Below are positions 10,465 to 35,808 of a DNA stretch of 64,000 nt, piece after piece. Position numbers and translations under genes: made by a program. Each line of letters starts with the position of its first letter. Within the stretch, counting starts at the first letter, position 1. The stretch spans positions 1 through 64,000 of the forward strand of contig NZ_VOUA01000011.1 in the NCBI RefSeq assembly GCF_024372725.1, read 5' to 3'. Origin of the DNA: Methanosarcina sp. KYL-1 (lineage in GTDB: Archaea > Halobacteriota > Methanosarcinia > Methanosarcinales > Methanosarcinaceae). The notes beneath the pieces are model-generated. The model did not search any database, was not told the origin of the DNA, and was given only the letters and a program-made list of their open reading frames with translations.

Positions 10465-13400
10465 TTATCCCTTTTTGAACCCGAGCTTTTCCCGGATCGT
10501 TTCCATTTTTTCTTTCCAGTCCGGGACTTCTTCGAGGGCCATGAGATCTACGGTGCCGCCCTGAAACTCTCCTTCCCCTGCTCTTTCTTCCATCATGGCT
10601 TCGATTTCAAGATAGGAATTCTTAAGTTTCTCAAGGAGTTCAGGGGCAGGGTTCCAGAGCTTCCTGGCTTCGGCTTCAAGGAGGCGGCGGGAGATCTCTT
10701 CCAGAGCGTAGGGGTTGTGCTCTTCAAAAAAAGCCCTCATCTCCACATCGAGGACGAAGGTGTCTGTAATCTCATCAAATATCCAGTCGTCCACGGCCTT
10801 CGTGGAGGCTTCCCAGCCGTAGACCCTCCCGATCCGACCTGAAATTTCTCCGGCTCCCTGGTAGCCGTGGGCTTTCATGCCTTCGATCCAGCGCGGGTTC
10901 AAAAGCTTGCTCCTGACCACCCGCCTCAGTTCGTCGGCAAGAGCCCGAATTTCCGGGTGCCCTCCTTCCCTGGAATCCCCGAAGTATGCTTTAACCTCTT
11001 TTCCGGAGGCCTGCCTGGCCGCCGCTGTCATGCCTCCGTGGGTCCCGAAGTAGCAGCAGCAGCCCAGAAGGTCGTGTTCGTCGCTTACAACCTTGTTGTA
11101 AGTCAGGTCCACACTTTCCAGGTTCCGGGCAAGCCGCGTATGTGCTTCTTCGCCGTTTGTGTTTTTTCCGTAGGCGTATCCGTTCCAGTAGAGGAAAACA
11201 TCGGCCAGATCCTTTTCGTCTTTCCAGGCGCTTGCATAAACCGCAAGCTGTACGCCTGAAGAATAGGTCCCCGGTTTGCTGGAAAAAATCCTGTAGGTGG
11301 CATCCCGAACTTCCATCCCCTCCTCCAGCATTCCCAGGGTATGTTTTCGGACATAGTTGCACTCAGGGTCTTCTTCTAAGGAGGCTACGGCCTGGACGGC
11401 TTCGTCCATCAGTTCCATCGAACCCGGAAAGTTGTCCCGCAGGATCCCGGAAGCCCGGATGGTCACGTCTATCCTGGGCCTTCCCAGTTCTTCTAAGGGG
11501 ATTACGGCGAAACCTTTCAGCTGCCCGCTGCCTGTCCAGACAGGTTCGACCCCGAGGAGCTGCATTATCTGGGCCATGCACTCCCCGTCTGCCCACATGA
11601 TGTCACTTGCCATCCAGTAAAATGCAATGTTTTCCGGGAGCCTGCCTTCCTCTTCCCGATATTTATCCAGCAGCATTTCTGCCAGTTGTTTTCCGACCCT
11701 CCAGGCCGCTCTTGTAGGGATCTTTTTCGGGTCCAGGGAATAGAAATTCCTGCCCGTGGGAAGTACGTCGGCTCTCCCGCGCATGATCAGCCCCGAAGGC
11801 CCGGGTTCGATATAGCCGCCTTCAAAGCCGTGCAGCAGGGCTTCGATTTCTTCCGAAGCCTCTATCCTTGCGTCGAGGTCCATAACACGGCTTTTGATTT
11901 CTCCAAAACGCAGGGCGTCTCTGGAGGAGAACCCGCGGGGCTTCGGAAGTTTTGGGTTCCGTTCTTTGAACAGTTCGGGGTCATGGAGAAGTTCGGAAAA
12001 CTCAATTCCAGGTTGCTCCAGGACACCCGCTATGCAGGCCGTGGAGAGCAGGTCAAGCTCTTCAAGGAGCTGCCCGTTTGAAAGCCCGCATCCTGAGACC
12101 TCGCCCTGGGCTTCCAGGAGCCCGTCAAAATCAAGATCCAGTTGTTCCGCAAGTGCCCTCCTTAAGGAGCCCTTTTTTTCCCCATCGTCATAGCGCAGTA
12201 CAGAGTTTATGAATTCGGCTTTTTGCCTGCCTTCGGGTCGGTTCCCGAAGATATGCATGCCGCCCTGGACCTGGGTATTCCTGAGTTTCGAGAGGGCCTC
12301 GTGGGCTTTTCTTACGAGCTCTTCAAAAGGCGTTTCCGGCCCGACTGAAAGTTCCGGGCCCAGGTTTATTTCTTCGATTTTGTCCCTTACCAGGTGCTTT
12401 AAGGCATGGCTACGGCCGGGGTCATGCCTGGCCTGTTCGTATTCCCCAAGCAGCCCGTCCAGTTCCTCAAGCCCGGCATAGAGTCCCCCTCCCTGCATGA
12501 CTGTCTGCATGTGGTCGACAAGGCAGGCCAGGCTACGGCGTTTGGCGGCGCTGCCTTCGGGAGGGTTGTCCGAGTTGTAGATATAAAAATGCGGGACCGT
12601 ACTTATTGCAAGGTCCGGGAAGCAGTTTTTCGAAAGCCCGACCCCTTTGCCCGGCAGGAATTCCAGGTTCCCGTGCGTACCTACGTGCACAACCGCATCA
12701 GCCCCGAAGCCCTCTTCCAGGTAGCGGTAGGTGGCAAGGTAGTGGTGGGTCGGGGGTACGTCGGGGTCGTGCAGGATTTTGCAGACCTGTCCGTTGCAGG
12801 CCGGGCCTGCACATCCCCGCTTGGGCTGCACGCAGACCACGGCGTTTCCGAACTTTACCCCGGTTATAACAAGTTTTCCTTCATGCAGCATTGCAGCCGG
12901 TGCCTCTCCCACGGGTTCCCCTGGGGGCTGGCCCCATGCACGGGTCATGCGAGCCTGTACTTCCGGAGAGAGGGTATTGAAGAAGTTTTCGTATTCTTCC
13001 TTTCCCACAAAGGCCAGGGCCCCTCCGTTTCGTACTATTTCTTCGATCCCTGTCCAGCGGAATTCCGAGTAAGCCTTTTTCTTGAGGATCAGGTCAATCA
13101 GCTCTTTCCCGTCAGCAGGAGGCCTGACCGCGTATCCTGCTTTTTCCATCCTCTGCAAAATCCGGGCAACACTTTCCAGGGAGTCAAGGTTGGCAGCGCA
13201 GCCTATTGTCCCTTCAACACTTGCACAGGGTTTGTTATGCAGGATGAAGGCGACCTTTTTTTCCGCGGGAGGCCTGTTCCTAAGTTCAAGGAGTTTGCAG
13301 ACCCTTGCTGCAAGCCGGGCACAGCGCTCTACTATGGGCACATGTTCCACGTAGTTCTCAAGCTTCTTCCCGCCTCCTATGATAAGGGGCTCGATGGCAC

Positions 13401-14325
13401 CTTCAAACTCGGGCATGGCGACGTACCAGGCAATATCGCTGCCAAGTCCCGGGGAAGCTTCCCAATCTTCAACGGTCATGTAGCTTGAAATTATGGGCTG
13501 GACCAGGGGCACGTCAAGTTTTTTGAGCAGGTATAGTCCCTCTCCTGCCCTGGCAGGATCGTTTTCCCTGCCCTGCCTGCTTTTAATCAAAAAAGGGGTA
13601 AGTTTTATCAGGCAATCTATAATCGGGGTGCCTTCTGGCATGAAGTACTCTTCCACGACCTCTCCCATTGCCCTTGTGCCGAGCTCGTCATCCTGAAGGG
13701 AGTAGGCAAACACAGGGATCACCCGCAGGCCCAGGCGTTCCAGGTCCCGGATAAGGGTATTTTCTACTTTAAGGTCTCCGTTAACCCAGGCCGTTCTTGA
13801 CACAAGCAGGCCTGCGGTTTTTCCGGGAGCCGGTTTGTACCACTTAAGATAGTCTTCCAGCTTTGAAAACCAGGTTTCTGTGTCCGGATGAAAGAGCCCA
13901 TCCCATGCTATCTTTTTTGGGGGTTCGGCAAGGGGGCCTTCCCCGAAGACCTCATGCCGGAGGTAATTCAATAAGTTTGTGAGGTTTTCTTCTCCATTGT
14001 AGGTGAAGTAGAGATAAGCCGTAGCTGCAATTTGCGGATTTACCGAAGACCTGGTCCAGAAATAGGCATCGTGCCCGGTGCAGACTACAGGAACTTTCTC
14101 TTTTATGGTTTCGATTTTTAAGCTGAGTTCATCCCAGAAAGTGCCGCTGGTGTAGTACAGAAGGACAAGGTCGGCAGTTTCACAGGCCTTCAGTGCTGTC
14201 TCTAGTTTATCAGGTTCTTCTTCGAGGGCTCTTGAGGAGTAGGCTTCCATTTCGAAGCCCAGTTTTTTCCCTGCTTTCAGGAGGGGAGGGATGTAGGAGT
14301 TCCATGTGATCGAAACGATTTTCAT
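10465..14325 (-). CDS. cobN: CobN/BchH-type metal chelatase large subunit
   Basis: The 1286-residue product has full family length, with conserved blocks such as GTHGNLEFLPGKGVGLS (about 549), ILHDPDVPPTHHYLATYRY, FYWMASDIMWADGECMAQ and LLGCCCYFGTHGGMTAA. These are typical of the CobN cobaltochelatase and BchH/ChlH magnesium chelatase large subunit, which binds the tetrapyrrole and metal. It acts in the cytoplasm with an AAA+ motor, and the fused ChlI-ChlD gene (14928) diverges from it across a 600-bp region. Methanogens insert cobalt early, by a small CbiX/CbiK-type enzyme, so a role in aerobic-type B12 synthesis is doubtful. Bacterial CobN-like HmuS proteins act on heme, so the substrate here is open. 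No cobalamin genes are nearby; transporter and surface genes are. Confidence 0.9.
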   Translation of the reverse strand: MKIVSITWNSYIPPLLKAGKKLGFEMEAYSSRALEEEPDKLETALKACETADLVLLYYTSGTFWDELSLKIETIKEKVPVVCTGHDAYFWTRSSVNPQIAATAYLYFTYNGEENLTNLLNYLRHEVFGEGPLAEPPKKIAWDGLFHPDTETWFSKLEDYLKWYKPAPGKTAGLLVSRTAWVNGDLKVENTLIRDLERLGLRVIPVFAYSLQDDELGTRAMGEVVEEYFMPEGTPIIDCLIKLTPFLIKSRQGRENDPARAGEGLYLLKKLDVPLVQPIISSYMTVEDWEASPGLGSDIAWYVAMPEFEGAIEPLIIGGGKKLENYVEHVPIVERCARLAARVCKLLELRNRPPAEKKVAFILHNKPCASVEGTIGCAANLDSLESVARILQRMEKAGYAVRPPADGKELIDLILKKKAYSEFRWTGIEEIVRNGGALAFVGKEEYENFFNTLSPEVQARMTRAWGQPPGEPVGEAPAAMLHEGKLVITGVKFGNAVVCVQPKRGCAGPACNGQVCKILHDPDVPPTHHYLATYRYLEEGFGADAVVHVGTHGNLEFLPGKGVGLSKNCFPDLAISTVPHFYIYNSDNPPEGSAAKRRSLACLVDHMQTVMQGGGLYAGLEELDGLLGEYEQARHDPGRSHALKHLVRDKIEEINLGPELSVGPETPFEELVRKAHEALSKLRNTQVQGGMHIFGNRPEGRQKAEFINSVLRYDDGEKKGSLRRALAEQLDLDFDGLLEAQGEVSGCGLSNGQLLEELDLLSTACIAGVLEQPGIEFSELLHDPELFKERNPKLPKPRGFSSRDALRFGEIKSRVMDLDARIEASEEIEALLHGFEGGYIEPGPSGLIMRGRADVLPTGRNFYSLDPKKIPTRAAWRVGKQLAEMLLDKYREEEGRLPENIAFYWMASDIMWADGECMAQIMQLLGVEPVWTGSGQLKGFAVIPLEELGRPRIDVTIRASGILRDNFPGSMELMDEAVQAVASLEEDPECNYVRKHTLGMLEEGMEVRDATYRIFSSKPGTYSSGVQLAVYASAWKDEKDLADVFLYWNGYAYGKNTNGEEAHTRLARNLESVDLTYNKVVSDEHDLLGCCCYFGTHGGMTAAARQASGKEVKAYFGDSREGGHPEIRALADELRRVVRSKLLNPRWIEGMKAHGYQGAGEISGRIGRVYGWEASTKAVDDWIFDEITDTFVLDVEMRAFFEEHNPYALEEISRRLLEAEARKLWNPAPELLEKLKNSYLEIEAMMEERAGEGEFQGGTVDLMALEEVPDWKEKMETIREKLGFKKG

Positions 14326-14927
14326 ATCTTAGATCCGCTCCGGATTTCTATTCCTTTAGCACCGGTTTTTTTATTTTTTGATAAGTTTTGATTTTTTTAT
14401 TCTGTTTTTTCCAACTTTTCTTTACTTTTCAATTGAGGATTTTCCTTTAATGTTTACGAAATACTTTTAAATATCATACATTGATAGGGTCATATATTAA
14501 AAACATTTCATTTTTGTCTTCTTGATTATAATAAATAGCTTTAAATCGTCAAATTTATTGTGTTTTTTGTGTTAAGTATCTTGATTTTATTAATAACTAA
14601 TTTCTGAAAACAGCTGCAGGGTCATTCTTTATTTTTGCTTATATAAGAATCAGGAGTAAAATCTTACCAGTTTTATATTTTTCTTCGTAATTGTATAAAA
14701 AATAAAACAAAAATGTTATCTAGTATTATCGTATCTTTTTTACTTATGTCTAAAAAGCTATTTTCCTGCAAAAATCTTTTCCTTTTAAAGGGGCCAGCAG
14801 ACTCATTTTTTTTTGAGAATGGCATTTTTGATTTCTGCACTTTTGATTTCTGTATTTTTGTGTTCTGCAAGGCTGGCAGGGTCTTCCCAGGGCTTCGCCG
14901 GCGGTGTTTCAGGGAGGAGGCCAAATC
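14326..14927. promoter_or_regulatory. divergent control region of the chelatase genes
   Basis: The 600 bases between the cobN-type gene (minus) and the chlID-type gene (plus) are strongly AT-rich and have no credible open frame. Both promoters must lie here. TATA-like stretches occur at about 14490-14540 and 14640-14700. A good ribosome site (ggaggagg, 14913-14920) precedes the ATG at 14928. I saw no riboswitch-like conserved core. Confidence 0.5.
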
Positions 14928-16976
14928 ATGAATGTTCCCGAAGCTTCTATCTACCCGTTTACTGCAATAGTCGGACAGGAGCAGATGAAAAAGTCCCTTG
15001 TGCTCAATGTCATCAATCCGAAAATCGGAGGTGTCCTGATCCGGGGAGAGAAGGGCACTGCCAAATCTACAGCAGTCAGGGCTCTTGTCAGTCTGCTTCC
15101 TGAAATTGAGGTTGTTGAAGGCTGCAGTTTCGGGTGCAGCCCGCATAACAAAAATGAAATGTGTGAGGCCTGTCTGGAAAAAACCGGGCGTGGAGAGCTG
15201 AAAGGAGTTCTCCGGAATATGAGGGTCGTAAACCTTCCTGTAAGTGCAACGGAGGACCGGGTGGTAGGGACCCTTGACCTTGAGCATGCCATCCAGACCG
15301 GAAAAAAACGCTTTGAACCGGGTGTGCTGGCTTTAGCCCACCGGGGGATCCTTTATGTGGATGAGATCAACCTGCTTGATGACCATCTTGTGGATACCCT
15401 GCTTGATGCGGCTGCCATGGGCGTGAACACTGTTGAGCGGGAAGGGATTTCTTTTTCCCACCCTGCAGCTTTTGTGCTCGTGGGCACCATGAACCCGGAA
15501 GAAGGGGACCTCCGGCCCCAGCTGCTTGACCGCTTCGGGCTCTGTGCGGATGTGAAAGGCATAGAAGACCCTGAAGCCCGGGTTGAACTGCTCAGGCGCA
15601 GGCTCAGTTACGAACAGGACCCTGAAGCCTTCGCAATGGAATGGGCTATCTCCGAAGCCGACCTCTGTTCCCGGATCCTGCGTGCGAAAGCCCTGCTGTC
15701 GGAAACCAGGATTTCAGATCCTATGCTTGAACTGATCGCCGGGATCTGTGTTGACACGGGAGTGGACGGGCACAGGGCAGACATCTGCATGGTGAAAACC
15801 TCTCTTACCCTTGCCGCTTTCGGGGGCAGGACCGAAGTTTCAGAGGCTGACGTCCTCGAAGCTGCCGAGCTCGTGCTCTCCCACCGCAAGCGGAGAAAGC
15901 CCTTTGATGACTCCTCCGGAGAAGATAAACTCGAGGAAAGCCTGCAAAAACACAGGAAAAAACAGGAAGAGAAAAAGGCCGGAAACGAGGAAAAAGAGTC
16001 TGAGAGGCAGAACCCGGAACGGGGCCAAAAAGAGGGCCAAAAAAATGAGCCTGAACAGGGCCAGGGCCGTGAGCCGGAGGAGAGCCGGGAAGAAGAGAAA
16101 AATGAAAACTCCCATGCGGGACATGAACAGGTTTTCGGGATGGGGGACTGCTTCCGGGCAACAAACCTGTCGCCTGAATTCCGGAAGAAAAGCCGGAAAG
16201 GGGCAGGGAAACGCAGTGATACCCGGACAGAAGCAGGAAGGGGCCGTTATGTAAAAAGTGCTGTTCCGGAAGGGAGGGTTACTGACCTTGCATTTGATGC
16301 AACCCTGAGAGCTGCTGCACCCTACCAGCCCGAAAGAAAGTTGCTTTCGGAAAACGGGAATGCAGTGCTTCTCCGGGTCCCCGACCTCCGGAAGAAAGTC
16401 CGTGAAAAAAAAATAGGAAACATGATTCTTTTTGTTGTGGATGCCAGCGGTTCAATGGGGGCCAGGCAGCGCATGGTGGCTGCCAAAGGTGCGGTGCTTT
16501 CGCTCTTGCTGGATGCATACCAGAAAAGGGACCGTGTAGGGCTGATCGCTTTCAGGGGAGACAGTGCGGAACTGCTGCTCCCTCCCACCCGGAGTGTTGA
16601 GCGTGCCCGGAAGTGCCTGCAGGAGATGCCTACCGGTGGAAAGACCCCACTGTCCCTCGGGCTTGCCAGGAGCTATGAGGTAATCCGGGCCGAAATCTGC
16701 CGGGACGCCGATGTCTGTCCTTTCATGATCCTGATCTCGGATGGGAAAGCCAACGTGAGTGCAGGCGGAAAATCCCCTTTTCTGGAAACGGAAATAATCG
16801 CATCCCGGTTCAGGGAAGAGGGAATCCCTTCGGCTGTGATTGATACCGAGAAAGGGGCCCTGCGTTTCGGGCTTGCAAAAAAAATCTCTTCGGCCCTGGG
16901 GGGCCTGTACATGGGGCTTGAAGAGCTGAGGGCAGATACGCTGCTCGGGGCTGTCCGGGTGGCAGGAGGCTTCTGA
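14928..16976 (+). CDS. fused ChlI-ChlD (BchI-BchD) chelatase ATPase subunit
   Basis: The 682-residue product joins an AAA+ domain and a VWA domain. Walker A is GEKGTAKST at 40-48 and Walker B is [12 protein letters not shown] (about 141-152), with the chelatase insert [13 protein letters not shown] at about 109. An acidic/basic Gln-Glu-Lys-rich linker spans about 325-410, and a VWA domain has the MIDAS motif D-A-S-G-S at 505-509. In magnesium and cobalt chelatases the I and D parts form the ATP-driven motor that loads metal through the large subunit, here the divergent cobN-type gene. An in-frame GTG at 14904 exists, but the ribosome site lies between it and ATG 14928, which decides the start. 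Confidence 0.92.
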
Positions 16977-16980
16977 ATAA

Positions 16981-17044
16981 TTCCCTGAAATCCGGATTTC
17001 GCACAGGAAAGGGTTTTCAGTATTCAGAAATCGATTTCAGGGAA
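16981..17044. terminator. shared hairpin between convergent chlID-type and DUF2117 genes
   Basis: The sequence ttccctgaaatc (16981-16992) is the exact reverse complement of gatttcagggaa (17033-17044). It begins four bases after the chelatase stop and overlaps the last codons of the minus-strand DUF2117 gene. It is a plausible bidirectional transcript-end structure. Confidence 0.5.
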
Positions 17045-18210
17045 TTTCCTGCAAGTATTATGATCATTTGCTTCAGGGTCTCGGTACTCTCAAACACAGC
17101 TTCATGATTTCCTGAAAAGAGTTCCTGCTTAACCTTTCTCCCAAGCTCATCATCGCTTCCTGGCTTCAGCTGCAGGACCAGCGAACCCGGATAATAAGCT
17201 ACAGTGCTTGCAAGCTCATCACAGTCTCCATCCGTAATTCCAAGTACAGGGATTCCGAACCTGTAGAAAATATTGCCTGCAATCTCCGTGGTGTCGTCTC
17301 CGACGGTTACGGCAAGGCCTGTCCCTTCTGTCATTTCAAGAGAACGTTCCGCGCAGTGGTCCATAAGTACGGCCTTAACCCTGTTTCCCGGAGTTCTCCC
17401 CTGCAGGGGATATTTTTTCGGAGGAGCGGCTTTTTCTGACCTTCCTTTTTTTCCCTTTTCCTGGATTTTTCCCTCTTCCTGGATTTTGCCTTCAAGCAGG
17501 TTTTTCCGAGAAGTCCCGGTCTTTACCCAGGCCCTGGAAAGGTCTACCGGCACTTTTTCCTCATGCCCGTGAAGGATTTCGATTCCTTCCTTCTTTACCA
17601 TTCCTCCTTCCATTGAGGTCAGGAACCCGTTTTCGGATATAAGGGCGACATCCGGAGACGTGGCTTTTCCAACTACAATACCGTTGACCATTATGTATGC
17701 CCCCGGAAGGGTAGAAATCCTTCTCAGAACACGCTGTCCTTCATTTGTAATCTCAATGGTATTGACCGGCTCAGGCGGCTGGGAGATTCTCATATCAAGA
17801 AGCCTGGAAAGTTTTTCAGCATGCATGTAAGCTTCCCGGTTCCAGGGAATGAGTTCCCCGTCGGGACTCCCGGGCCTTTCAATCTGTATAAGGGGTTTTT
17901 CTTCAGGGTTGTTAAGATGTGATACAACGATCCTTCCAAAAGCCCTGCCGGATCTCAACTCTTTTCCATGGTTAAGCAGGCATACGAGGTCATTTGCCCT
18001 GAAAAGGGCCTCAATACAGGCGCTGGGTTTCAGGTACTGGTTGATGTCAATCAGGTCTTCCAGGCCGGCATCTATCGCAGCAACTTTCCCCAGGGTCCCG
18101 CAGAGGCGGGCATCTATGCAGTTTTCCCCGGAAAGAGAGGCAAGAATCTCTTTGACAACCCGTGGAGAGTCCATGAGCTGGAGATTATGAATCACAATTC
18201 CTATTCGCAT
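17017..18210 (-). CDS. DUF2117-family protein
   Basis: The 397-residue soluble protein opens with MRIGIVIHNLQLMDSPRVVKEILASL, a Rossmann-type first strand and helix, and resembles the methanogen DUF2117 family. The N-terminal 150 residues and the C-terminal region (GLAVTVGDDTTEIAGNIFYRFGIPVLGITDGD, about 300-331) look like two alpha/beta domains that could bind a nucleotide or cofactor. Between them is a Lys/Glu-rich low-complexity linker (about 240-262). The function is not established. It lies between the chelatase motor gene and the MacB-type permease, in the opposite orientation to both, so context gives only a weak link to the surrounding system. Confidence 0.75.
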   Translation of the reverse strand: MRIGIVIHNLQLMDSPRVVKEILASLSGENCIDARLCGTLGKVAAIDAGLEDLIDINQYLKPSACIEALFRANDLVCLLNHGKELRSGRAFGRIVVSHLNNPEEKPLIQIERPGSPDGELIPWNREAYMHAEKLSRLLDMRISQPPEPVNTIEITNEGQRVLRRISTLPGAYIMVNGIVVGKATSPDVALISENGFLTSMEGGMVKKEGIEILHGHEEKVPVDLSRAWVKTGTSRKNLLEGKIQEEGKIQEKGKKGRSEKAAPPKKYPLQGRTPGNRVKAVLMDHCAERSLEMTEGTGLAVTVGDDTTEIAGNIFYRFGIPVLGITDGDCDELASTVAYYPGSLVLQLKPGSDDELGRKVKQELFSGNHEAVFESTETLKQMIIILAGNSLKSISEY

Positions 18211-18760
18211 ATAAACAAAACATATATAGTTAAACTAATTATAAACTTCGAAATGATTATATGTGAATAATTGTTTGTTTTTTCTGAATTATTTCTAATA
18301 TTTCTGTCATTTGTTTGTTTAGTTTCCTGCAGATTTTTTCCTCTTCTTTAAAGCTATAGAGGTTTAAACATATGTTTTATCACAAATTGCAATAAATTAT
18401 TTCAATGAGTTCCCTTTTTACCAGGCAATTTCTGGCAAATATCAAAAAAATTAAATATTCATAATTTCTGTTAATTAACTTGTATTATGTAACATAAAAT
18501 ATTGAAATTAACAATATTTTTTTGTAAATACTACACTTACTCCAGTCTCATACTAACAGTATTTGCGGTGTCAATATAATGAATTTAATCAAGTGAAATT
18601 CCTGCCGGTTATGCTTATTTCCTCCTCCGGAGCAGGATATTTCTGTGAAATAACCAGGCCTGAATTTTATTTTCCAGGGGTTTCCAGCCTGGTATCTGGA
18701 AGGAAGATATCTGTACTGAAGGGCCGGGAAATCGCTGCCCTGAGCAGGAACAAAAAGAAA
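18211..18760. promoter_or_regulatory. divergent AT-rich control region
   Basis: The region lies between the DUF2117 gene and the MacB-type permease. It contains several TATA-like runs (catatatag at 18221, long AT stretches from 18360 to 18530) and a repeated ttgtttgttt motif (about 18267 and 18312). The open frame extending upstream of the permease start over 18563-18760 has no family features and is taken as untranslated. Confidence 0.45.
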
Positions 18761-19954: not shown

Positions 19955-19981
19955 AAGGAAAATTCTCAGTTTTTTCAGGAG

Positions 19982-20923: not shown

Positions 20924-20948
20924 TTGAAATACAAAAAAGAGGCAAAAC

Positions 20949-22040: not shown

Positions 22041-22123
22041 AGTAAGCGTATTTTCCTGATCGGGTGTTTCCCTCTCAGGTGTTTCCTTGACGTGGGTTTC
22101 CCCTTTCATTCTGCAGGGAGCTT

Positions 22124-23929: not shown

Positions 23930-24040
23930 ACTATCGTATCCTTTGCTTATCCTTAAATGCTTAAAAAACTTATGAAAAATAAGAAATAGTTTGATTATAA
24001 TCTATGTTTGTGTGAATGCAAACCTCATGGAGGCTATGAA

Positions 24041-24904: not shown

Positions 24905-24925
24905 AGCCCGAAAACTTTTTTGAAA

Positions 24926-26062: not shown

Positions 26063-26134
26063 TCTTTCAGCCCTTCAGTCCTGTCTATCTCTTACATATA
26101 CTGTCAGTTATACATGCTGTCAGTTATTTTTTGT

Positions 26135-27346: not shown

Positions 27347-29052
27347 CTCCTCCTGAGCTGTACGAAGGCGGCCAGCAGGATTCCTGCCCCTCCGGCAAAG
27401 GGCGGAAACGGAAGGCTTTCGGTCTCGCTTTTCTCAGGAATGGCCCTTGAAGTTCCCTGGACAATGGCGTTTCTTTCCCCGTTCTCCAGCAGGTCCCTCT
27501 TCGGGGAGATTTCTTTGCTTCCGGGGACATCCACAAACAAAAATTCTCCTGCCATGTTGCCAGCTCCGTCAACAGCACTGACAAATATCCTGTTGAAGCC
27601 GGCAGGCAGCTCCACTTCGGTCCGCCATTTCCCTTCCGAAAGCAGGGCTGGTTCCCCATTTACGGTTACACTGATGTCTTCGCTTGTATCTTCCACAGTC
27701 CCGCTTACAAGAATTAGCCCGCTGTTTACGGATTCTCCGTCTTCAGGCTGCTCGATCTCAATTTCGGGAGGGGTCAGGTCGATGATATTAACTTTCAGGG
27801 GAGTGTTATTGTTGTTTATCTCGCAAAGTTCTTTTCTTCTGTCCGTGGAGTCTGCAAATACTTTAAGGAAGTGCTCTCCGTCGCAGTCAGCTTCCCAGTT
27901 AAACTCCACGGTCTTTTTCCCCCCGTTTCTCAGAGAGGATATGAGAGCTGTGGAGACAATCCTGTCATCTACATAGAGCGCGACCTGAAAACTGGACGCA
28001 GGGTCGTCCCCTATGTTTTCAATGCTTGCTTTTATTATATTTTCCTCCCCTGCATAGAGGAGGGGGACTACCAGGTCCGAAACTTTCAGGTCCATGTCTC
28101 CTTCCTCTCCCGTGCTCAGGCTAAGCACCGCAAGCACCGGGTGCAGGTACTCTTCTTCTCCCCTTTCAACCCTCATCTCGTTTCCACTTTTCTCAAGGTA
28201 GTCCAGCACATCAAAGACCTTGAAGTCAAAATAATCTTTTGAGTTTGCGATGTCATTTTTGTTTGTCCCGTCCGAAAGCTGTTCGTCGTTGAAATATAGG
28301 TAGTCTTCTTCCCCGCTGGTACCTGTGAGGTATACGACGGACAGGCTTGCAAGCTCGTATTTATCCGGGTTCACCGTGCCAGAAAAACTTACGGTTAGTT
28401 CATCGTTCGTGTCCCCTTTCCCGTCCGAACTTTCCCCGTGCAGGTTTACGTTCCCTTCTTTGATCCAGTACTTTACATCGTCTCCATCTTCGTCTTCGTA
28501 TACCGCGACCAGGACTACTCCATATACCTTCCCGTCAATACTTCCGCCGGTTTTTACCACGGCCTCCGCCGATCCCGGACTTGCAATCTCAGTAACATTG
28601 TATGTTACCCAGTATACGCCGTTTCCCGAACAGTAGACTTCCGGATTGTCATCCTCTTCCCCTTTTAGATCCAGGGTTTCGAATTCAAAGTCATTAAAAG
28701 TGACGTCCAGAGTTCCCGTATTCCGGGCGTTGCCCCCCCAGACTCCCACATAGAGCCTCGCAAATTTTGTAGAGTTTCCCGGTACATTGAAGGTCTGTGT
28801 ATAAGGGGTTGCATCAAGCCCGTGTCCCCCATCCACATACACCCCGCCTTTCACGGTCCCGGAATCGACGCTTTTTAAGCTGTCAGGTTCCGGGCAACCG
28901 TCCTCCACGTAATCAGCCAGGCCAGGCTGGACCGACATAATAAGAAGCGCAAGAGCCGCAGCAAAGAGGCAGTATGCAGCCTTCTTCCCGTAAAACGCCG
29001 CAGCAAATTTTTCCAGTGTTCTTTTCGGCCTCATACTTTTTTTAATTTTCAT
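27334..29052 (-). CDS. DUF3344-CARDB surface protein with C-terminal membrane segment
   Basis: The 572-residue product starts at MKIKKSMRPKR; a start at 29094 would add 14 residues with no role. It has a signal peptide (about 25-45) and a type A DUF3344 domain (about 55-320: GGHGLDATPYTQTF, ARLYVGVWGG, YCSGNGVYWVTYNV, GNVNLHG, LSVVYLTG, YFDFKVFDVLDYL, YLHPVLAVLSL). A CARDB beta sandwich follows (about 325-420), then an Ig-like module (about 425-510, PPEIEIEQPEDGESVNSG) and a C-terminal hydrophobic segment ending RRRWGK. It overlaps the downstream secreted gene by 13 bases. It is probably anchored in the cell envelope. Confidence 0.87.
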   Translation of the reverse strand: MKIKKSMRPKRTLEKFAAAFYGKKAAYCLFAAALALLIMSVQPGLADYVEDGCPEPDSLKSVDSGTVKGGVYVDGGHGLDATPYTQTFNVPGNSTKFARLYVGVWGGNARNTGTLDVTFNDFEFETLDLKGEEDDNPEVYCSGNGVYWVTYNVTEIASPGSAEAVVKTGGSIDGKVYGVVLVAVYEDEDGDDVKYWIKEGNVNLHGESSDGKGDTNDELTVSFSGTVNPDKYELASLSVVYLTGTSGEEDYLYFNDEQLSDGTNKNDIANSKDYFDFKVFDVLDYLEKSGNEMRVERGEEEYLHPVLAVLSLSTGEEGDMDLKVSDLVVPLLYAGEENIIKASIENIGDDPASSFQVALYVDDRIVSTALISSLRNGGKKTVEFNWEADCDGEHFLKVFADSTDRRKELCEINNNNTPLKVNIIDLTPPEIEIEQPEDGESVNSGLILVSGTVEDTSEDISVTVNGEPALLSEGKWRTEVELPAGFNRIFVSAVDGAGNMAGEFLFVDVPGSKEISPKRDLLENGERNAIVQGTSRAIPEKSETESLPFPPFAGGAGILLAAFVQLRRRWGK

Positions 29053-29120
29053 TTCAGGCAGCTCCATCAAAATCATAAGATTAGCAAACTCCAATAAAAA
29101 GAATAAAATGGAAACCTTTT

Positions 29121-31589
29121 TCAGGCGGCAATTTCCGCCCAGAAAGTAAGGTTCCCTTCAAAATTCCCCGTGCCCGCATAATCCGAGGGTACCCTGAGGG
29201 CAACATTTGAGTTGCTCGATTTTTTTGAGGCTATCGTTTTGCTGAAGCTGGCCCAGGGGGCCGAATCAAGCAGGATCCCGTCCATAAAGAGGTTGTCGGC
29301 TGAATCCGTGACATCGGCTGTGACATCTAAGGCATACTTCCCGTTATTCTGGAGGGTAATTGTCTCTGCACGACTTGTTTCTCCCGGGGAAAGCGTGCCG
29401 AAATAGATTTCATTTGGGGTAACGGATAAGGAGATTGCCGGAAGGATTTCGACTCCTATCGAAATCGAGGACGAGTCATTGCCACCGGATGAGTCATTGC
29501 CGTACCTGACCAGGAGGATGGCCCCAGAAGGCACCAGGAAGTCCCCTCCTATCTCTGAGGGTGCGGCGCTGATCTCGATGGCATTATTTTCTTCCTTGAG
29601 GCAGTCTTCTACGGCTTCCAGCCGGTCGATGTCCAGGGATGAAGAGGGGCTCCCTTCATAAATGCCGGAGAATATGGCTTCATTGAAGAGCAGGAAATTA
29701 CCTTCGTTCTTTCCTGAGGGGACTACTGTCCAGAGTTCGGCGCTGCCGACCTGGTCGAGGTCCACGGTCCCGCTAAAAAGGGCTTCGGTCGTCGCCTCTT
29801 CAGAAGTCATGCCTCCTGAGGATCCGGTTGTGGAGAGCATGTCTGCGCCTTCATTTATCCAGTACTCGGTTTCCTCTCCTTCGGGTTCTTCGTACACCAC
29901 AAGGAGACACACCCCGTTAATGATAAAAGACCTCGAAGTATCCGGGTTGGTATTGGTGATGATTGTGCGGTACTCCCCGTTTCCTGGCACTAGACCCGTG
30001 ACATTGCATGCCCAGGTCCCCGAGGGGTAGTCATAACTTCCCCAGTCTTTCCTGTCACTGTAGGTGGCTTCAGGCATAACGGTGTTTCCGGCAAAGTTCA
30101 GGCTCATTACCGGGGTATCTGCATTGCTCCAGGTCCAGTAAGTGTAAAGCCTGGCAAGCTTCACGTTTGCCCCTTCCGGAAGTGAAAGAGTGTGGTTTAC
30201 TGTATATGTGGCTCCTGCGGCCATCGACCCGCTGTAATAGCTGTCTCCGTAGTCATAGCTGATGTTCCCTCTCACGATCCCGTGGGCAAAGGTTGCAAGC
30301 GGCATGTCTCCTACATAGCCATTGTGCAGCACTACCTGTTCAAGGCTCTTTTCGTTGTTTGTCCTGTCCGGGTCACTTATGACGTTGTATGGATCGGCAA
30401 CGGCTTTCAGGCTGTATGTCTTTTCCTCTCCGGGTTTCCAGGTAAAGCTGACAACGGTGTCAACTCCGGAGGGAAGCGTCTCTATAGTTTCGTTGCCAAC
30501 CTCAACCCCGTCTTCAAAAAGCACGACTGGAGTCCCGCTTACGGCTTCGGGGCCTTCGTTTCTTACCGTAACACTCACGGTATTGTTAAGGTCTTTCCAG
30601 GCTCCTGCGTAAGAATTATGGAATACCGCAAGTTCTGTAAGGTTCAGGTCCGCATCCTCATTCCCGGAAGTTTCTTCTTCGTATTCTGCCGTGAGGGTAC
30701 CGAGGACTATTTTATAGTAGGAACTGCTCCTGTTGTAGGTCATGGTGTTTGTGCCGGCCGGGTTTAAGCTGTCCGTAACATCCCATGTATCGGAACCGCC
30801 TCCGTAGTATCCCTGGGGAGTACTTGAGACCAGCTCACCCTCGTTGAATGCATATGCTCCGTTTGCGCTTGCCATATACACCGCAGTCAGGTTCGCACCT
30901 TTGGGGAGGGAGCCTTCCGGCAGCTGAGCATCAAAATCCGTGCTGCCAATATAATCTACTCCTAAGGAATTCTCACTGTAGTAGCTGTCCACGTCATGCC
31001 CCAGGTTAACCTGGTACCAGGTCGTTCTATCGCTACTGTTATTGTACGCTACAACCAGGGACATCAGCTTAATACGCCCGTCAAAGGTGCTGTCTATGGG
31101 GGCCGTGTTTATGACTGCAGTGTTCTCCCCGGGCTGTACGAGGTCTGTGACATTATAGTTCATTACATAGTCGCTTGTTACCCTGTTTGTATGGCTGTTT
31201 ACAAGGACAAATCCGTCCCCTCCGTTCATTTTGAACACAAAAGGAACATTCAGGGTCTCATTTCCGAGAACAGTTCCTCCAAAGCTGACGTTTGCCGTTC
31301 CCCGGTAATTGGCATCCTGGCTGCCGCAGTATACGCTGGTAAAGAGCATTGCCCAATCAATTTCCGCATCATCCGGGAGGGTAAATGTCTTGCTTATGGT
31401 TATGGGTTGTCCCTTCACCTGGTCTGCTATCCCGTAATAGCTGTCGAAGTATACTCCTCCGGTGACAACTCCTTCATGGACTTCGGTCAGAGGGATCCCG
31501 CCTAAGGCTTCGTCGGCGGAACAGGTCCCTGCACTCAAACACAAGCTCACAAACAAAGTTAAGAGTATAAGGAAAGGCTTTCGATTCAT
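29121..31589 (-). CDS. secreted protein with two different DUF3344 domains joined by CARDB
   Basis: The 822-residue protein has a clear signal peptide (1-25). The first DUF3344-like domain (about 35-305) is a divergent type A: VTGGVYFDSYYG, AMLFTSVYCGSQ, SDYVMNYNVTDL. A CARDB module follows (about 315-410). The second DUF3344 is type B (about 415-690: YYSGSMAAGATYTVNHTLSL, ARLYTYWTWS, DRKDWGSYDYPSGTWACNV, INGVCLLVVYEE, YWINEGADML), and a last beta module (about 705-822) has no membrane anchor. It heads a minus-strand surface-protein operon that continues to 24926. It is notable as a natural fusion of the two domain types that occur in separate adjacent genes elsewhere in the window. Confidence 0.88.
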   Translation of the reverse strand: MNRKPFLILLTLFVSLCLSAGTCSADEALGGIPLTEVHEGVVTGGVYFDSYYGIADQVKGQPITISKTFTLPDDAEIDWAMLFTSVYCGSQDANYRGTANVSFGGTVLGNETLNVPFVFKMNGGDGFVLVNSHTNRVTSDYVMNYNVTDLVQPGENTAVINTAPIDSTFDGRIKLMSLVVAYNNSSDRTTWYQVNLGHDVDSYYSENSLGVDYIGSTDFDAQLPEGSLPKGANLTAVYMASANGAYAFNEGELVSSTPQGYYGGGSDTWDVTDSLNPAGTNTMTYNRSSSYYKIVLGTLTAEYEEETSGNEDADLNLTELAVFHNSYAGAWKDLNNTVSVTVRNEGPEAVSGTPVVLFEDGVEVGNETIETLPSGVDTVVSFTWKPGEEKTYSLKAVADPYNVISDPDRTNNEKSLEQVVLHNGYVGDMPLATFAHGIVRGNISYDYGDSYYSGSMAAGATYTVNHTLSLPEGANVKLARLYTYWTWSNADTPVMSLNFAGNTVMPEATYSDRKDWGSYDYPSGTWACNVTGLVPGNGEYRTIITNTNPDTSRSFIINGVCLLVVYEEPEGEETEYWINEGADMLSTTGSSGGMTSEEATTEALFSGTVDLDQVGSAELWTVVPSGKNEGNFLLFNEAIFSGIYEGSPSSSLDIDRLEAVEDCLKEENNAIEISAAPSEIGGDFLVPSGAILLVRYGNDSSGGNDSSSISIGVEILPAISLSVTPNEIYFGTLSPGETSRAETITLQNNGKYALDVTADVTDSADNLFMDGILLDSAPWASFSKTIASKKSSNSNVALRVPSDYAGTGNFEGNLTFWAEIAA

Positions 31590-32351: not shown

Positions 32352-34118
32352 ATGAAAAAATGCCTGGTATTTGTTCTGTTAATTCTCCTGGTCCCGGTTT
32401 CCGAAGCCCGTTATTCCTATGAAGGCATGCCTTTTGAAATGGATGCTCAGGGCACCATCCAGGGAAATATGTACCTCAGCGGAGGACACGGACTCGGTTT
32501 TCCTCCATACTCCCAGAGTTTTGACGTCCCCGGGGGCTCGGTCCTCTGGGCCCGTTTGTATGTCGGGGTCTGGGGCGGAACGGAAAACTATGAGGGCTGG
32601 GTCCAGCCCGGTTTCAATGGGCTCCAGCTTGAAAGGCTGCCACTCTCCGGAGAATGCGATGAAAATGATAATGTCTACTGTTCGGGGCATGGGGTTTACT
32701 GGGTCTCATATGATGTAAGCTCCCTTGCAAAAGCCGGGGAAAATACGGTGGAAATCCTGACGAGCAGAGGCGAACCCGGAAACAGGCTGGATGGAAGGGT
32801 CTATGGGACCGTGCTTGCGGCGGCTCTGGAGGACCAGAAGGCTCCGGTGATTTCCTACCAGATCTATGCAGGCAACGTAAACCTGCATGGGATGAGCCTG
32901 AGCGGGAGCAGTGTGAATGTCAACGACTTTGCAGGTGTTAATTTCAGCCCCGTTCCTGACCCGGAGAGCATAAAGGATGCAGAACTTTCGGTTGTGTACC
33001 TGAGCGGCTCGAAGGGACTGCCCGATTACCTTGAATTTAATGGCGAAAGGCTCGGGACTCCGTCTCAGTACCTTTCGAATGAGAGGTATGGGGGGGTGGC
33101 AACGGATATCGCCAATGAGGTGAGCTATGATGCCCTGGGAGGCAGCGGAAGCCCTGGCAGCTACTTTGACATAGAGGCGTTTGATGTGCTTGAAAAATTG
33201 CAGGCTGAAAACAGGGTTACCTTTCTGAGAGGATCGGACCTGGACGGGAATGGAGAAATCGATAGCTGGGAAGGAGAAGACTATGTGCATCCTGTCCTGG
33301 CATCCCTTGTCCTGATCCGCGGGACAGCTGGAACTCCGCTCCCCGACTTATCCCCGGAGCTGGCAATCAGGGAAGAAGCCCTGGTGGACGGGGAGGATGC
33401 GGAAATCCCCTTTATAATACACAACCCCGGAGGGCTATATAATGAAAATTGTACGGTAAGCTTCCGGGTTGACGGGCAGGAGGTTTCCACCGCAGCTTTT
33501 CGGATGGATGCAAGAGGGGTATACAGTTCCTCTTTTACCTGGCCTGCGGAAAAAGGGGATCATGAGTTTGAGCTTGCAGCGGACCCTGAAAGTAAAGTGA
33601 AGGAATCGGATGAAGGAAACAACGTTTGTAAGTATGCAGCCCATGTCAAATCGGGACCCGAACTCTCGGTTTCCCTGGGGGAACCCGTAAAAGTCAAAAA
33701 TGGTGAAGGGGTTTCGGCAGTTTCGGCTTTTTTCCTCTTCCCGTTTGCTCTTTTAGGGGTGCGGAGGAAAAAAACACGTGCCCTCCTCTTGCTTGCAGTC
33801 CTTGTATTCGGGCTTTTCGGGGGGTGCGTTGAACAGGAATCCGAAACCAAACAGCTCACATACCTGGTCCCGTTAAGCATAACTAATAGTGGAGAAGCGT
33901 CTGCCCGGGACTTTAGCGTGAATCTCTATCTTGATGGGGAAAGTGTGACCGTTATGGATATTCCGGAACTGGAAGGTAAGGCTTCAATTTCCGAGGAGCT
34001 GCATATTAAAACAGAGAAGGGAGAGCATACCCTGAATTTAAAGGTGGATGAAAGCAACCGTATAACCGAGTCGGATGAGGAAAACAATGAATGTGAGATC
34101 TTTTATAATTTTACTTAA
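32352..34118 (+). CDS. DUF3344-CARDB protein with internal anchor followed by internal lipobox
   Basis: The 588-residue product has a signal peptide (1-19) and a type A DUF3344 domain (about 30-330: GGHGLGFPPYSQSF, ARLYVGVWGG, YCSGHGVYWVSYDV, GNVNLHG, YFDIEAFDVL, YVHPVLASLVL). A CARDB module follows (about 340-435). Then come two hydrophobic runs: SAFFLFPFALLGVRRKK (about 457-473), which looks like a C-terminal sorting or anchor tail, and ALLLLAVLVFGLFGGC (to Cys492), which looks like a lipoprotein signal. About 95 residues with a second CARDB-like module follow. It reads as two genes fused end to end, or a protein processed into two. It overlaps the next DUF3344 gene by 32 bases. Confidence 0.85.
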   Translation: MKKCLVFVLLILLVPVSEARYSYEGMPFEMDAQGTIQGNMYLSGGHGLGFPPYSQSFDVPGGSVLWARLYVGVWGGTENYEGWVQPGFNGLQLERLPLSGECDENDNVYCSGHGVYWVSYDVSSLAKAGENTVEILTSRGEPGNRLDGRVYGTVLAAALEDQKAPVISYQIYAGNVNLHGMSLSGSSVNVNDFAGVNFSPVPDPESIKDAELSVVYLSGSKGLPDYLEFNGERLGTPSQYLSNERYGGVATDIANEVSYDALGGSGSPGSYFDIEAFDVLEKLQAENRVTFLRGSDLDGNGEIDSWEGEDYVHPVLASLVLIRGTAGTPLPDLSPELAIREEALVDGEDAEIPFIIHNPGGLYNENCTVSFRVDGQEVSTAAFRMDARGVYSSSFTWPAEKGDHEFELAADPESKVKESDEGNNVCKYAAHVKSGPELSVSLGEPVKVKNGEGVSAVSAFFLFPFALLGVRRKKTRALLLLAVLVFGLFGGCVEQESETKQLTYLVPLSITNSGEASARDFSVNLYLDGESVTVMDIPELEGKASISEELHIKTEKGEHTLNLKVDESNRITESDEENNECEIFYNFT

Positions 34119-35076
34119 TGTCCTGCTGCTGCTCAGCTTGCCTGTTTCGGCTTCCTATGCAGGGGACAAGCCCCTGCAAACTGCCCTTCATGGTAAACAC
34201 CCGGGAGCACTTGATTTTTCCCTGGGGGACGGCAGGTACAGCGGGGAACTGACGTACAATGACAGCTATACCGTTAATTTCAAGGTCGATCCCCCTGCCG
34301 GCAGTTCCATAAAATTTGCAAGGGCTTATGTTTACTGGGGCTGGAGCAAAAAAGGGCTTGAAGGCATCTATCCGGAGTTCAGTGCCTCCCTTATTCATGA
34401 AGGTACTTCCGTGCCCCTTCCTGAGGGACAGAGGTATGCCGACAGCAAGGGCTTTGCATCCAGGTATGACTTCTTTTCAGGCACGGATGCTTATGACCTG
34501 TCCGGGGTGATTTCAAAATCCGGCAGCTATTCGGTCTCGCTTGTGAATACCGCCGGGGACGGGAGCACTTTTTGCGTACAGGGTATCGGGCTTCTCCTGG
34601 TCTATGAAAGTCCTGAGCTGCCAGTTGTCGAATACTGGATCTCCGAAGGCTGTGACATGCTGTATGCCGAATATGGGATAGATCCCGAAATGGCCACAAC
34701 GACTGCTTACTTTGAAGGGGAAATTGACCCCCGGGACGTTTCAGATGCACGCCTGATAACGGTCTCTCCTTCTGGAGGCTACAGTTCGGGCACCGGGGCC
34801 AGGAGCAAGCTTTTCTTTAATGAGAATACGAAGCAAGTTCCCGTCCTGGGCGAGATCATACAGCTCCTGTTCGGAAGTGGAAAAAGCTGGAAAAATGTGT
34901 ATGTGACAAACGAAACTGCCCAGGTCGCCCTGGACGAAAGGCAGGTGGGAGATTATCTGGAATCGGCAGGGAATTTTGCCAGCATCCAGGACAATGGGGA
35001 TTATCTCCTGGCAACAAATGCAATACTCTTGCTTGAATTTGAAGGGCCTGAAAAGGGAACCAAAGCAGGGGCCTGA
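34087..35076 (+). CDS. secreted DUF3344 protein, no anchor
   Basis: The 329-residue product starts at ATG 34087, six bases after a GAGG ribosome site inside the preceding gene; an ATG at 34075 adds four residues. It has a signal peptide (about 1-23) and one type B DUF3344 domain: YTVNFKVDPPAGSSIKFARAY-type strand, YADSKGFASRYDFFSGTDAYDLS, TFCVQGIGLLLVYE, YWISEGCDML, NAILLLEFEG. There is no C-terminal hydrophobic tail. It is translationally coupled to the type A gene before it, as the type B/type A pair is in the other operon. The LolD-type ATPase follows after 57 bases. Confidence 0.85.
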   Translation: MNVRSFIILLNVLLLLSLPVSASYAGDKPLQTALHGKHPGALDFSLGDGRYSGELTYNDSYTVNFKVDPPAGSSIKFARAYVYWGWSKKGLEGIYPEFSASLIHEGTSVPLPEGQRYADSKGFASRYDFFSGTDAYDLSGVISKSGSYSVSLVNTAGDGSTFCVQGIGLLLVYESPELPVVEYWISEGCDMLYAEYGIDPEMATTTAYFEGEIDPRDVSDARLITVSPSGGYSSGTGARSKLFFNENTKQVPVLGEIIQLLFGSGKSWKNVYVTNETAQVALDERQVGDYLESAGNFASIQDNGDYLLATNAILLLEFEGPEKGTKAGA

Positions 35077-35133
35077 GCCGCGGCCATGCCCCCTCGGAAA
35101 AGGAAGCTGATATTTTGCAGGAAGGGATGAAAA

Positions 35134-35808
35134 TTGAATATTGTTGAAACCATGGACCTCTCTAAATTCTATAAATTTGATTCGGGGCTGCGCGTGGAAG
35201 CCCTTAACGGGATAGATGTGGATATCGAGGAGGAGGAATTTGTTTCCTTCATGGGGCCTTCAGGGTCCGGAAAGTCCACGCTGCTTAATATCATAGGCTG
35301 CCTGGACAGGCCAACTGCGGGCAGGGTTTTCATAGAGGGCGGTGAAGTTGACTACGGCAATTCCTCCGGTCTTGTCCGGCTGCACAGGCAGACAATAGGT
35401 TTTGTCTTCCAGGCTTTTAACCTGATCCCAACAATGAACGCCCTGGAGAATGTCTGCTACCCGATGTATTTTAACAGGGTCGGGCGTTCCCTGCAAAAAC
35501 AGAGGGGAAACGAGCTTCTCGACCTGGTCGGGCTGGGGCACCGGGCGCATCACCTTCCCTCCGAGTTATCCGGGGGGGAACAGCAGAGGGTTGCCATAGC
35601 AAGGGCGCTTGCAAACAGCCCCAGGCTTATTCTGGCAGACGAGCCCACAGGAAACCTTGATTCAGGTACCGGTAAAAAGATCACGGCTCTTATGAGAAAA
35701 ATTAACCGGGAGCAAGGGGTCAGTTTTGTCGTTACGACCCACGACCCTGAAATGGCCATGGCTGCGGACCGGGTAGTGAAGCTAAAGGACGGAAAACTCA
35801 CTGAATGA
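35134..35808 (+). CDS. LolD/MacB-type ABC transporter ATP-binding protein
   Basis: The 224-residue ATPase has Walker A GPSGSGKST at 41-49, the Q-loop FQAFNLIP, signature LSGGEQQRVAIARAL (about 144-158), Walker B LILADEPTGNLD and switch H in TTHDPEMA. Signature and length place it in the LolD/MacB/FtsE group. It starts at TTG, about seven bases after an AGGAAGGG ribosome site (35120-35127). Its natural partner is a MacB/FtsX-type permease; none follows it, and the only one in the window is at 18761. It is probably in the operon with the two preceding DUF3344 genes. Confidence 0.92.
   Translation: MNIVETMDLSKFYKFDSGLRVEALNGIDVDIEEEEFVSFMGPSGSGKSTLLNIIGCLDRPTAGRVFIEGGEVDYGNSSGLVRLHRQTIGFVFQAFNLIPTMNALENVCYPMYFNRVGRSLQKQRGNELLDLVGLGHRAHHLPSELSGGEQQRVAIARALANSPRLILADEPTGNLDSGTGKKITALMRKINREQGVSFVVTTHDPEMAMAADRVVKLKDGKLTE

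Follow-up and report, generated by a model that had tools for sequence, protein, structure and literature searches.

DUF3344 surface proteins, an ECF transporter and a CobN-type chelatase in one archaeal gene cluster: a candidate system that captures, imports and remodels a metal chelate

Background

What would a methanogenic archaeon do with a CobN-type metal chelatase that is encoded amid genes for a transporter and a series of surface proteins of the family DUF3344? The question is raised by contig NZ_VOUA01000011.1 of Methanosarcina sp. KYL-1 (assembly of 4.04 Mb), of which the first 64 kb of 96.7 kb were analysed and are referred to below as the window. An initial annotation, made from the sequence alone, had proposed that the genes between 10 and 36 kb form one system, in which DUF3344 proteins bind a metal chelate at the cell surface, an energy-coupling factor (ECF) transporter imports it, and CobN together with its motor protein ChlID inserts or removes the metal. 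The comparative analysis described here supports well the view that these genes constitute a functional unit, and makes it a sound reading that the unit captures a metal chelate, imports it and remodels it; the evidence consists of the gene content, the fold of the transporter's S-component, the conserved linkage of the genes and the placement of CobN in a single clade that carries particular cysteines. The more specific proposition, that the system serves the surface-to-cytoplasm salvage and re-metalling of a metallo-tetrapyrrole, most likely a corrinoid (i.e. a relative of vitamin B12), has in our estimate an even chance of being correct.

Gene content and the ECF S-component

Profile searches with Pfam and NCBIfam, by which the genes of the window were typed, confirmed the annotated inventory: CobN, ChlID, a fused EcfA, EcfT, MacB, LolD and six DUF3344 genes are grouped at 10-36 kb. 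The DUF3344 genes together encode seven domains (PF11824; 77-243 bits against a curated cut-off of 27.2), and a search of the whole 4.04 Mb assembly found no DUF3344 genes beyond these six. The chelatase gene (10465-14325, reverse strand) specifies a class I large subunit, and the AAA+/VWA motor partner that goes with it is encoded at 14904-16976 (forward; ChlI/ChlD-type, with Mg_chelatase, AAA_lid_2 and VWA matches). The transporter comprises a fused EcfA1A2 ATPase with two ABC domains (22124-23929, reverse; two PF00005 stretches, TIGR04520 at 492 bits against a cut-off of 315) and the transmembrane component EcfT (24008-24904, forward; PF02361, 1.3e-22), in which the segments QARGLE and ADxRGFRA are conserved in the alignment and which stays below the equivalog of the cobalt ECF protein CbiQ (TIGR02454, 37.4 bits against 111.8). 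We take these two segments to be the arginine coupling motifs.

The initial annotation had called the transporter complete, a claim that stands only by virtue of a gene it left unnamed, at 20949-22040 (forward). The encoded protein has seven hydrophobic stretches by hydropathy, its signal peptide included, and its model (built on 23 sequences; pLDDT 78.7, pTM 0.62) consists of a beta ectodomain and a helical part. In a fold search, model residues 188-363 matched the S-component 5edl (Z 16.2, rmsd 3.0, 169 residues aligned); the next row (Z 13.1) covers the ectodomain only, and nearly all others are matches of the immunoglobulin-like (Ig-like) ectodomain, e.g. to integrins and YcnI, which we do not read as function. 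Judged by this predicted fold the protein is an ECF S-component, EcfS, and because it has that fold the ECF transporter is complete. When the PDB was searched by sequence with profiles of EcfS and of DUF3344, no convincing relative was found. The ECF is a putative ATP-driven importer of a bound substrate.

Conservation of the DUF3344-ECF core

Within the family, DUF3344 is present in 23 of 111 genomes. An EcfT orthologue (56-85% identity, the next best being at 34%) occurs in 17 of the 111, the window's genome included, all of them DUF3344-positive, and EcfS occurs in the same 17 and in none of the 88 DUF3344-negative genomes (Fisher exact 2e-15, shared descent ignored). A scan of genome contigs yielded 35 loci, seven of them from records named ANME-2 (rows L097, which is partial, and L109, of 535 aa, were excluded from A2, and L110, of 580 aa, from A3). 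Genes in the loci of this and the later sets were labelled with home-made hidden Markov models, the labels MacB, LolD, FecA and ABC2 holding at family level. In all 24 EcfS loci a DUF3344 gene lies immediately upstream of EcfS on the same strand, as does the core DUF3344 gene of the window (19982-20923, forward), and the consecutive order EcfT-DUF3344-EcfS is found in half of the loci with a called EcfT (17/34). EcfS and EcfT are separated in six genomes (G077, G078, G079, G097, G099, G101), either by 33 kb to 1.1 Mb or by lying on different contigs. Two loci, L091 and L092, contain EcfT-EcfA without a DUF3344 match, the gene upstream in L091 being KaiC/Ras-like. Three genomes of the window's genus (G077, G078, G079) have 15-20 DUF3344 matches each, some in open frames of more than 2000 aa, and in the first of these LolD is in two pieces around a 330 aa open reading frame (ORF) that looks like an insertion (L054:4361-6179).

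Linkage of CobN to DUF3344 and to importers

The positions of DUF3344 and CobN given here and below are those among the matches listed. M. acetivorans, which served as a control, has DUF3344 and CobN as well. In three genera (G000, G002, G005), the window included, CobN and the DUF3344-ECF module are next to each other: in G005, of another genus than the window's, the order is ECF-MacB-DUF2117-ChlID-CobN-ABC-2, with CobN in two frames, and in G002 CobN and ChlID flank the module on either side. Among the other 14 genomes with the module, 11 have a second EcfT (31-33% identity) a few kb from CobN, the latter being 60-74% identical by segment; G099 and G104 have CobN and the DUF3344-ECF genes on separate contigs, and in G098 (79% complete) no CobN of the cysteine-rich kind was seen among the matches listed. 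The second ECF has a longer S-component candidate that is weakly similar to the EcfS of the window (hhalign E 3e-4, probability 39%), beta-propeller proteins are encoded upstream of CobN at these loci, and the same ABC-2 pair follows CobN/second EcfT in all five that were read (L062-L064, L066, L174). In G105, G056, G070 and in other families CobN is accompanied by FecCD importers, most of them also with Peripla_BP_2. Since ECF is found in some loci and FecCD in others, CobN keeps the company of an importer, the type of which varies.

In the wider sample of 374 phylum genomes there are 19 DUF3344-positive ones of at most seven contigs, 13 of which show CobN among the matches listed; in nine of these 13 (i.e. 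at most seven contigs and both genes shown) CobN lies within 20 kb of DUF3344, where 0.37 would be expected (P 4e-12, uncorrected for shared descent). A genome with a split CobN row of 1047 bits (G167) was counted among the 13, and one with a distance of 20.5 kb (G244) as a miss; in about ten further genomes the two genes are on different contigs, among the matches listed. Regions picked for nearness of CobN and DUF3344 contain CobN, ChlID, FecBCD, ABC-2, DUF3344, LolD and MacB in changing combinations in several families; counts on these 20 regions are biased, because they were chosen for close CobN/DUF3344 coordinates or for the bacterial island described below.

Some observations on these loci stand by themselves. 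In L068 (G076:C17:15001-35000) CobN and EcfA are each split over several frames, the only DUF3344 gene of that genome lying about 6.7 kb onward. By eye, proteins like periplasmic binding proteins (PBPs) with dockerin-like N-termini adjoin CobN (L059:853-4615, L071:10137-15840), and a cohesin-domain protein (Pfam, just above cut-off) is found beside DUF3344 (L057:1820-2437), which suggests a cohesin-dockerin scaffolding of binding proteins at CobN/DUF3344 loci. Membrane proteins with a Gate domain (PF07670), possibly metal permeases, recur in CobN loci (L060:9782-10966, L162:12177-13142, L154:13403-14392, L152:14731-16044, L165:14178-15158).

The association extends to a bacterium, HGW-Firmicutes-8 (Firmicutes by record name), on a contig that also encodes SLH and Cu_amine_oxidN1 proteins. 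A run on one strand reads DUF3344 genes, a MotA/ExbB protein, EcfT, DUF3344, EcfS, EcfA, CobN, ChlID, ChlID and an ABC-2 pair; a second run with a cysteine-type CobN includes a beta-propeller protein, a long S-component, EcfT, EcfA, ChlID and ChlID; and the island carries, in addition, CbiZ, BtuR/CobO and surface proteins that combine DUF4430 with a toroid. The latter resemble the layout of intrinsic factor and transcobalamin. In the Firmicutes metagenome-assembled genome (MAG) G428, about 90 kb of contig C50 (L165-L171, L113) hold four CobN, FecBCD, three ECF ATPase genes, CbiZ, BtuR, FmdE and DUF4430 surface proteins, so that this stretch is an island of chelatase and uptake genes. DUF3344 thus has CobN, ChlID or ECF as conserved neighbours in many genomes, with two types of importer and in one bacterium, as the check proposed in the initial annotation required.

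The CobN chelatase and its cysteines

The 1286 residues of CobN match PF02514 over 106-1229 (CobN-Mg_chel, 1256 bits, profile positions 3-1088 of 1090) and exceed the cut-off of NF004646 (PRK05989.2-4) with 2017 bits against 1468, while remaining just under those of the classical cobaltochelatase (TIGR02257, 799.9 against 822.05 bits) and of BchH (TIGR02025, 825.5 against 829). The catalytic histidine, H551, lies in HVGTHG, a motif of the HFG(T/A)HG type (PMC12583661) with V for F. Two cysteine segments align to the catalytic cleft: CX4CX4C (C505, C510, C515) sits in an insertion of five residues relative to the solved CobN and ChlH, and CCC (1089-1091) takes the place of SDD in the CobN of M. 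tuberculosis and of VSH in ChlH. In the chelatase homolog HmuS, His-1209 has opposite it His-538, which is equivalent to H551 (PMC12583661). In our reading the CCC segment corresponds to the His-1209 segment of HmuS, and C515, placed by its spacing from H551, would be situated in the cleft. Two features of HmuS are absent from the protein: hydropathy gives no transmembrane span in the 1286 residues, where HmuS has one at each end, and the His-1209 motif LSLDHxxEFMGG is replaced by LLGCCCYFGTHGG.

The cysteines, scored in the rows read out, mark a clade. The triple C505/C510/C515 is present in 17 of 22 CobN rows and absent from four, one row ending before it; C1089-C1090 is present in 18 of the 22, with a variable third position; and in a further set the triple was found in 15/15 archaeal and 2/4 bacterial sequences. 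In a quick tree of 43 rows (without rows of 1100 aa or less, and without L113, which is the same gene as L168) a branch with SH-aLRT 100 separates the 37 cysteine rows from the remaining six, which are long branches. In the search of the phylum, near-full-length CobN rows score either at least 1344 or at most 1133 bits, among the matches listed.

Regulation

Both the EcfA|EcfT and the DUF2117|MacB promoter have a conserved palindrome, ATAGTnnnACTAT. The corresponding candidate operators in the window, AATAGTTTGATTATA (23985-23999, forward) and ATTAGTTTAACTATA (18225-18239, reverse), are the highest-scoring sites in the 64 kb (20.5 and 19.6, the next being 13.5) under a matrix built from such sites; a search with a fixed pattern and at most three mismatches found the EcfA|EcfT site alone, with 0.59 expected by chance. 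As regards co-regulation of the unit, these two promoters share the palindrome, and CobN|ChlID has nothing comparable.

DUF3344, MacB and LolD

The core DUF3344 protein was modelled on 24 sequences (pLDDT 84.3) as a beta-rich structure, the first half of which matches the jelly rolls of BcsB, CBM35 and GH2 at Z 8-10. Structure prediction, which had been proposed as a check on DUF3344, thus points to a ligand-binding type of fold that resembles carbohydrate-binding modules and has nothing specific to tetrapyrroles. Four of the other five DUF3344 proteins, i.e. those encoded at 24926-26062 (reverse), 27334-29094 (reverse; with CARDB and Glucodextran_B), 29121-31589 (reverse; two DUF3344 domains and CARDB) and 32352-34118 (forward; two CARDB), are surface proteins; the fifth (34075-35076, forward) adjoins LolD.

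In 18 regions chosen by DUF3344 alone, MacB and LolD are each found in 13, and in 12 they are adjacent on one strand; the usual partner of DUF3344 is MacB/LolD and not ECF. In the window the MacB/FtsX-type permease (18563-19954, forward) and the LolD-like ATPase (35134-35808, forward) are 15 kb apart; because they are adjacent in other genomes, e.g. in G002, they probably form one transporter. The ATPase scores under the LolD equivalog (TIGR02211, 233.4 bits against 307.75) and does not reach the DarD equivalog cut-off either.

Flanking and interspersed genes

The unit reaches further left than annotated, to an ABC-2 type permease (7198-7923; PF01061, 1.2e-29) and its partner ABC ATPase (7924-8697; PF00005), a pair beside CobN on the reverse strand whose relatives recur next to CobN in other genomes. 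Between this pair and CobN an Ig-like surface protein with a signal peptide and a C-terminal hydrophobic stretch is encoded (8949-10076, reverse; weak Pfam matches below cut-off, and hydropathy). Two genes are interspersed in the cluster, namely one for a DUF2117 protein (17017-18210, reverse; PF09890, 8e-107), whose gene is found next to that of MacB in related loci too, and one for an S-layer/CARDB-like surface protein (26135-27346, reverse; weak matches), which accompanies the relative of the 27334-29094 gene in three other loci too. The window has no Rfam match at the gathering threshold, and a tRNA scan was negative as well. The ABC-2 pair is adjoined by a VIT and VWA protein with a PGF-CTERM motif (5039-6934), a 69% relative of which is at the same place in G005 (L055:18012-20000). 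At the LolD end the module is bordered by a gene at 37165-37668, with a sub-threshold ACT match, that is 95-98% conserved and has the same position in three other loci (L042, L044, L048); this position is a fixed chromosomal site. The idea that its product is a NikR-like regulator was abandoned, as the ACT match is below cut-off and the gene is no more than a conserved chromosomal neighbour.

Discussion

In the mechanism that we propose, the cargo would be gathered outside the cell by the Ig-like ectodomain of EcfS together with anchored DUF3344/CARDB proteins, the part of DUF3344 in this being presumptive, and EcfS would pass it to EcfT and the fused EcfA ATPases for uptake. In the cytoplasm ChlID would spend ATP so that the cysteine-rich CobN could insert, remove or exchange a metal, in whichever direction. 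MacB/LolD may act on the surface proteins or recycle the ligand, and the ABC-2 pair may export spent ligand. A corrinoid is our best guess for the cargo, and the metal and the direction of transfer are conjectured with it.

The choice of a corrinoid over heme follows from the few neighbourhoods that are informative, i.e. the CbiZ and BtuR genes of the Firmicutes island and the cobalamin operon of two genomes (G328 and G244), where the cysteine CobN is part of a run of corrin genes: a PadR regulator, a methyltransferase, TP_methylases, CbiG (G244), CbiC (G328), CbiD, CobN and CbiA. The statement in the initial annotation that methanogens do not need CobN for cobalamin holds insofar as a CbiX-family gene is present in 26/26 genomes tested, which leads us to reject CobN as a replacement for a missing CbiX; it does not account for the two genomes with CobN inside the cbi operon. 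CobN more likely serves in salvage, repair or metal exchange, and for the haloarchaeal late cobaltochelatase CobN with ChlID, cobalamin salvage has been suggested (PMC8305020).

Several observations weigh against the salvage of a corrinoid by a single system. A single genus, with two genomes, provides the cbi-operon case, and a single MAG the CbiZ/BtuR island; none of the 30 window ORFs scanned was recognised as a corrin gene, and de novo cobalt insertion should not need CobN, given the CbiX-family gene in all 26 genomes tested. ECF is not a general partner of DUF3344, because 79 of 374 genomes of the phylum have DUF3344 and six, all DUF3344-positive, a full-length EcfS; in the 18 regions chosen by DUF3344 alone, FecCD or PBP occur in seven, ChlID in two and CobN in one. 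CobN is located elsewhere than the DUF3344-ECF module in 11/17 genomes, a CobN match at E 1e-100 is absent, among the matches listed, from 6 of the 19 few-contig genomes with DUF3344, and eight genomes of the window's genus have a cysteine-rich CobN without DUF3344, again among the matches listed. The P values for co-location and co-occurrence both ignore kinship. Finally, one operator for the whole cluster had to be rejected, the best site at CobN|ChlID, at 14544, scoring 6.9, where background loci of the same genome reach 9.4.

Among the alternatives, acquisition of heme iron survives best, though we consider it unlikely: DUF3344 and ECF would import heme, and CobN would remove its iron as HmuS does in Bacteroidota. 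HmuS is indeed a CobN homologue and a dechelatase (PMC12583661), an ECF heme importer, LhaSTA, exists (PMC7299338), CobN-like proteins of M. barkeri change with the iron source (PMC10846266), and the Firmicutes run includes a MotA/ExbB protein. The parallel with HmuS that the initial annotation had drawn nevertheless fails on the details of the protein, i.e. CCC in the His-1209 segment, a hydropathy profile that lacks a membrane span and the partnership with ChlID, and on the corrin genes around CobN where neighbours are informative. Moreover, the spectrum of LhaS suggested ligation by histidine (PMC7299338), and no His or Cys of EcfS is invariant, or nearly so, in an alignment that did not include the LhaS sequence, which would speak against a heme pocket like that of LhaS.

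Nickel or cobalt could also be taken up on a metallophore that is not a tetrapyrrole, with CobN then delivering the metal for the synthesis of F430 or corrin. Metallophores are often the cargo of FecBCD importers, and siderophores can be recycled by MacB-type pumps, but CobN-class enzymes are known to act on macrocycles, CobN twice lies within a cbi operon, and no gene for metallophore synthesis was recognised among the scanned part of the neighbours. Plasmids of Methanoperedens with DUF3344 genes beside NikR, CbiMNQO and EcfT/EcfA, for which a biotin transporter was guessed (PMC9674854), fit this explanation; on balance we regard it as rather improbable.

Could there be two systems side by side, DUF3344 with MacB/LolD to build or shed adhesive surface proteins and CobN/ChlID with the importer as a separate tetrapyrrole module, clustered because they are regulated or transferred together? 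Among the families looked for, DUF3344 has no commoner neighbours than LolD and MacB, its fold is carbohydrate-module-like, it overlaps a cluster of ambiguous function from a fibrillar-adhesin screen (PMC9210967), and CobN is found without it, among the matches listed. A position directly before EcfS in every EcfS locus, and an association that is repeated with two types of importer and extends to a bacterium, make this separation very unlikely. A chance neighbourhood, to which the location of CobN elsewhere in 11 of 17 genomes might point, is contradicted by the co-occurrence of EcfT/EcfS, the invariant gene order, the 9/13 proximity and the Firmicutes run, and is hardly credible.

Within the proposed salvage of a corrinoid we tentatively entertain a bolder possibility, to be held with clear reservation, namely that CobN is of a new kind: the cysteines of the two cleft segments, the CX4CX4C insertion and CC(C/H/G) opposite, might hold an iron-sulfur cluster or a thiolate-bound metal, which would drive the reductive exchange of metal on an imported corrinoid, with the surface DUF3344-EcfS receptor as supplier. 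If true, there would be a surface-to-cytoplasm line of corrinoid repair, so far in methane-cycling archaea and one bacterium.

In a study of M. barkeri, heme import was judged unlikely for want of an operon (PMC10846266). The genes described here provide an operon-like context, which includes an importer, surface proteins and an unusual S-component and is seen in methanogens, in ANME-2 methanotrophs (the ECF-DUF3344 part) and in one bacterium. The puzzling archaeal CobN enzymes would thereby gain a testable job and DUF3344 a functional setting, and named genes and residues become available for studying how methane-cycling archaea obtain corrinoids or metals.

Comparison with known systems

We found no account of such a cluster in the titles and opening lines of abstracts of the literature on CobN or cobaltochelatase in methanogens and archaea, and a link between DUF3344 and CobN is absent from the passages on DUF3344 in two articles (PMC9210967, PMC9674854). 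The Methanoperedens plasmid region shares the DUF3344 genes beside an EcfT/EcfA pair; a biotin transporter was guessed there, and CobN or cobaltochelatase was not found in the main text (PMC9674854). The MacB/LolD pair resembles FtsX-like ABC transporters in its MacB_PCD and FtsX permease and LolD-like ATPase, and differs in staying below the LolD and DarD equivalog cut-offs, in being archaeal and in its tie to DUF3344. With the hmu heme system of Bacteroidota (PMC12583661) the cluster has in common a CobN-superfamily protein that is encoded with uptake genes and the catalytic histidine of HxGTHG (H551); unlike it, it has LLGCCCYFGTHGG instead of the HmuS motif, a ChlID, archaeal surface proteins and import by ECF or FecBCD. 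LhaSTA of Staphylococcus lugdunensis (PMC7299338) is likewise an ECF importer with S, T and A components, a function proposed here for a metallo-tetrapyrrole, whereas our EcfS has an Ig-like ectodomain, no conserved His, linked chelatase genes and a putative cargo. The haloarchaeal CobN and ChlID (PMC8305020), finally, also occur in an organism with the cobalt-early pathway; what sets the present system apart is a CobN of the cysteine-rich clade that is linked to an importer and to DUF3344/MacB/LolD surface genes.

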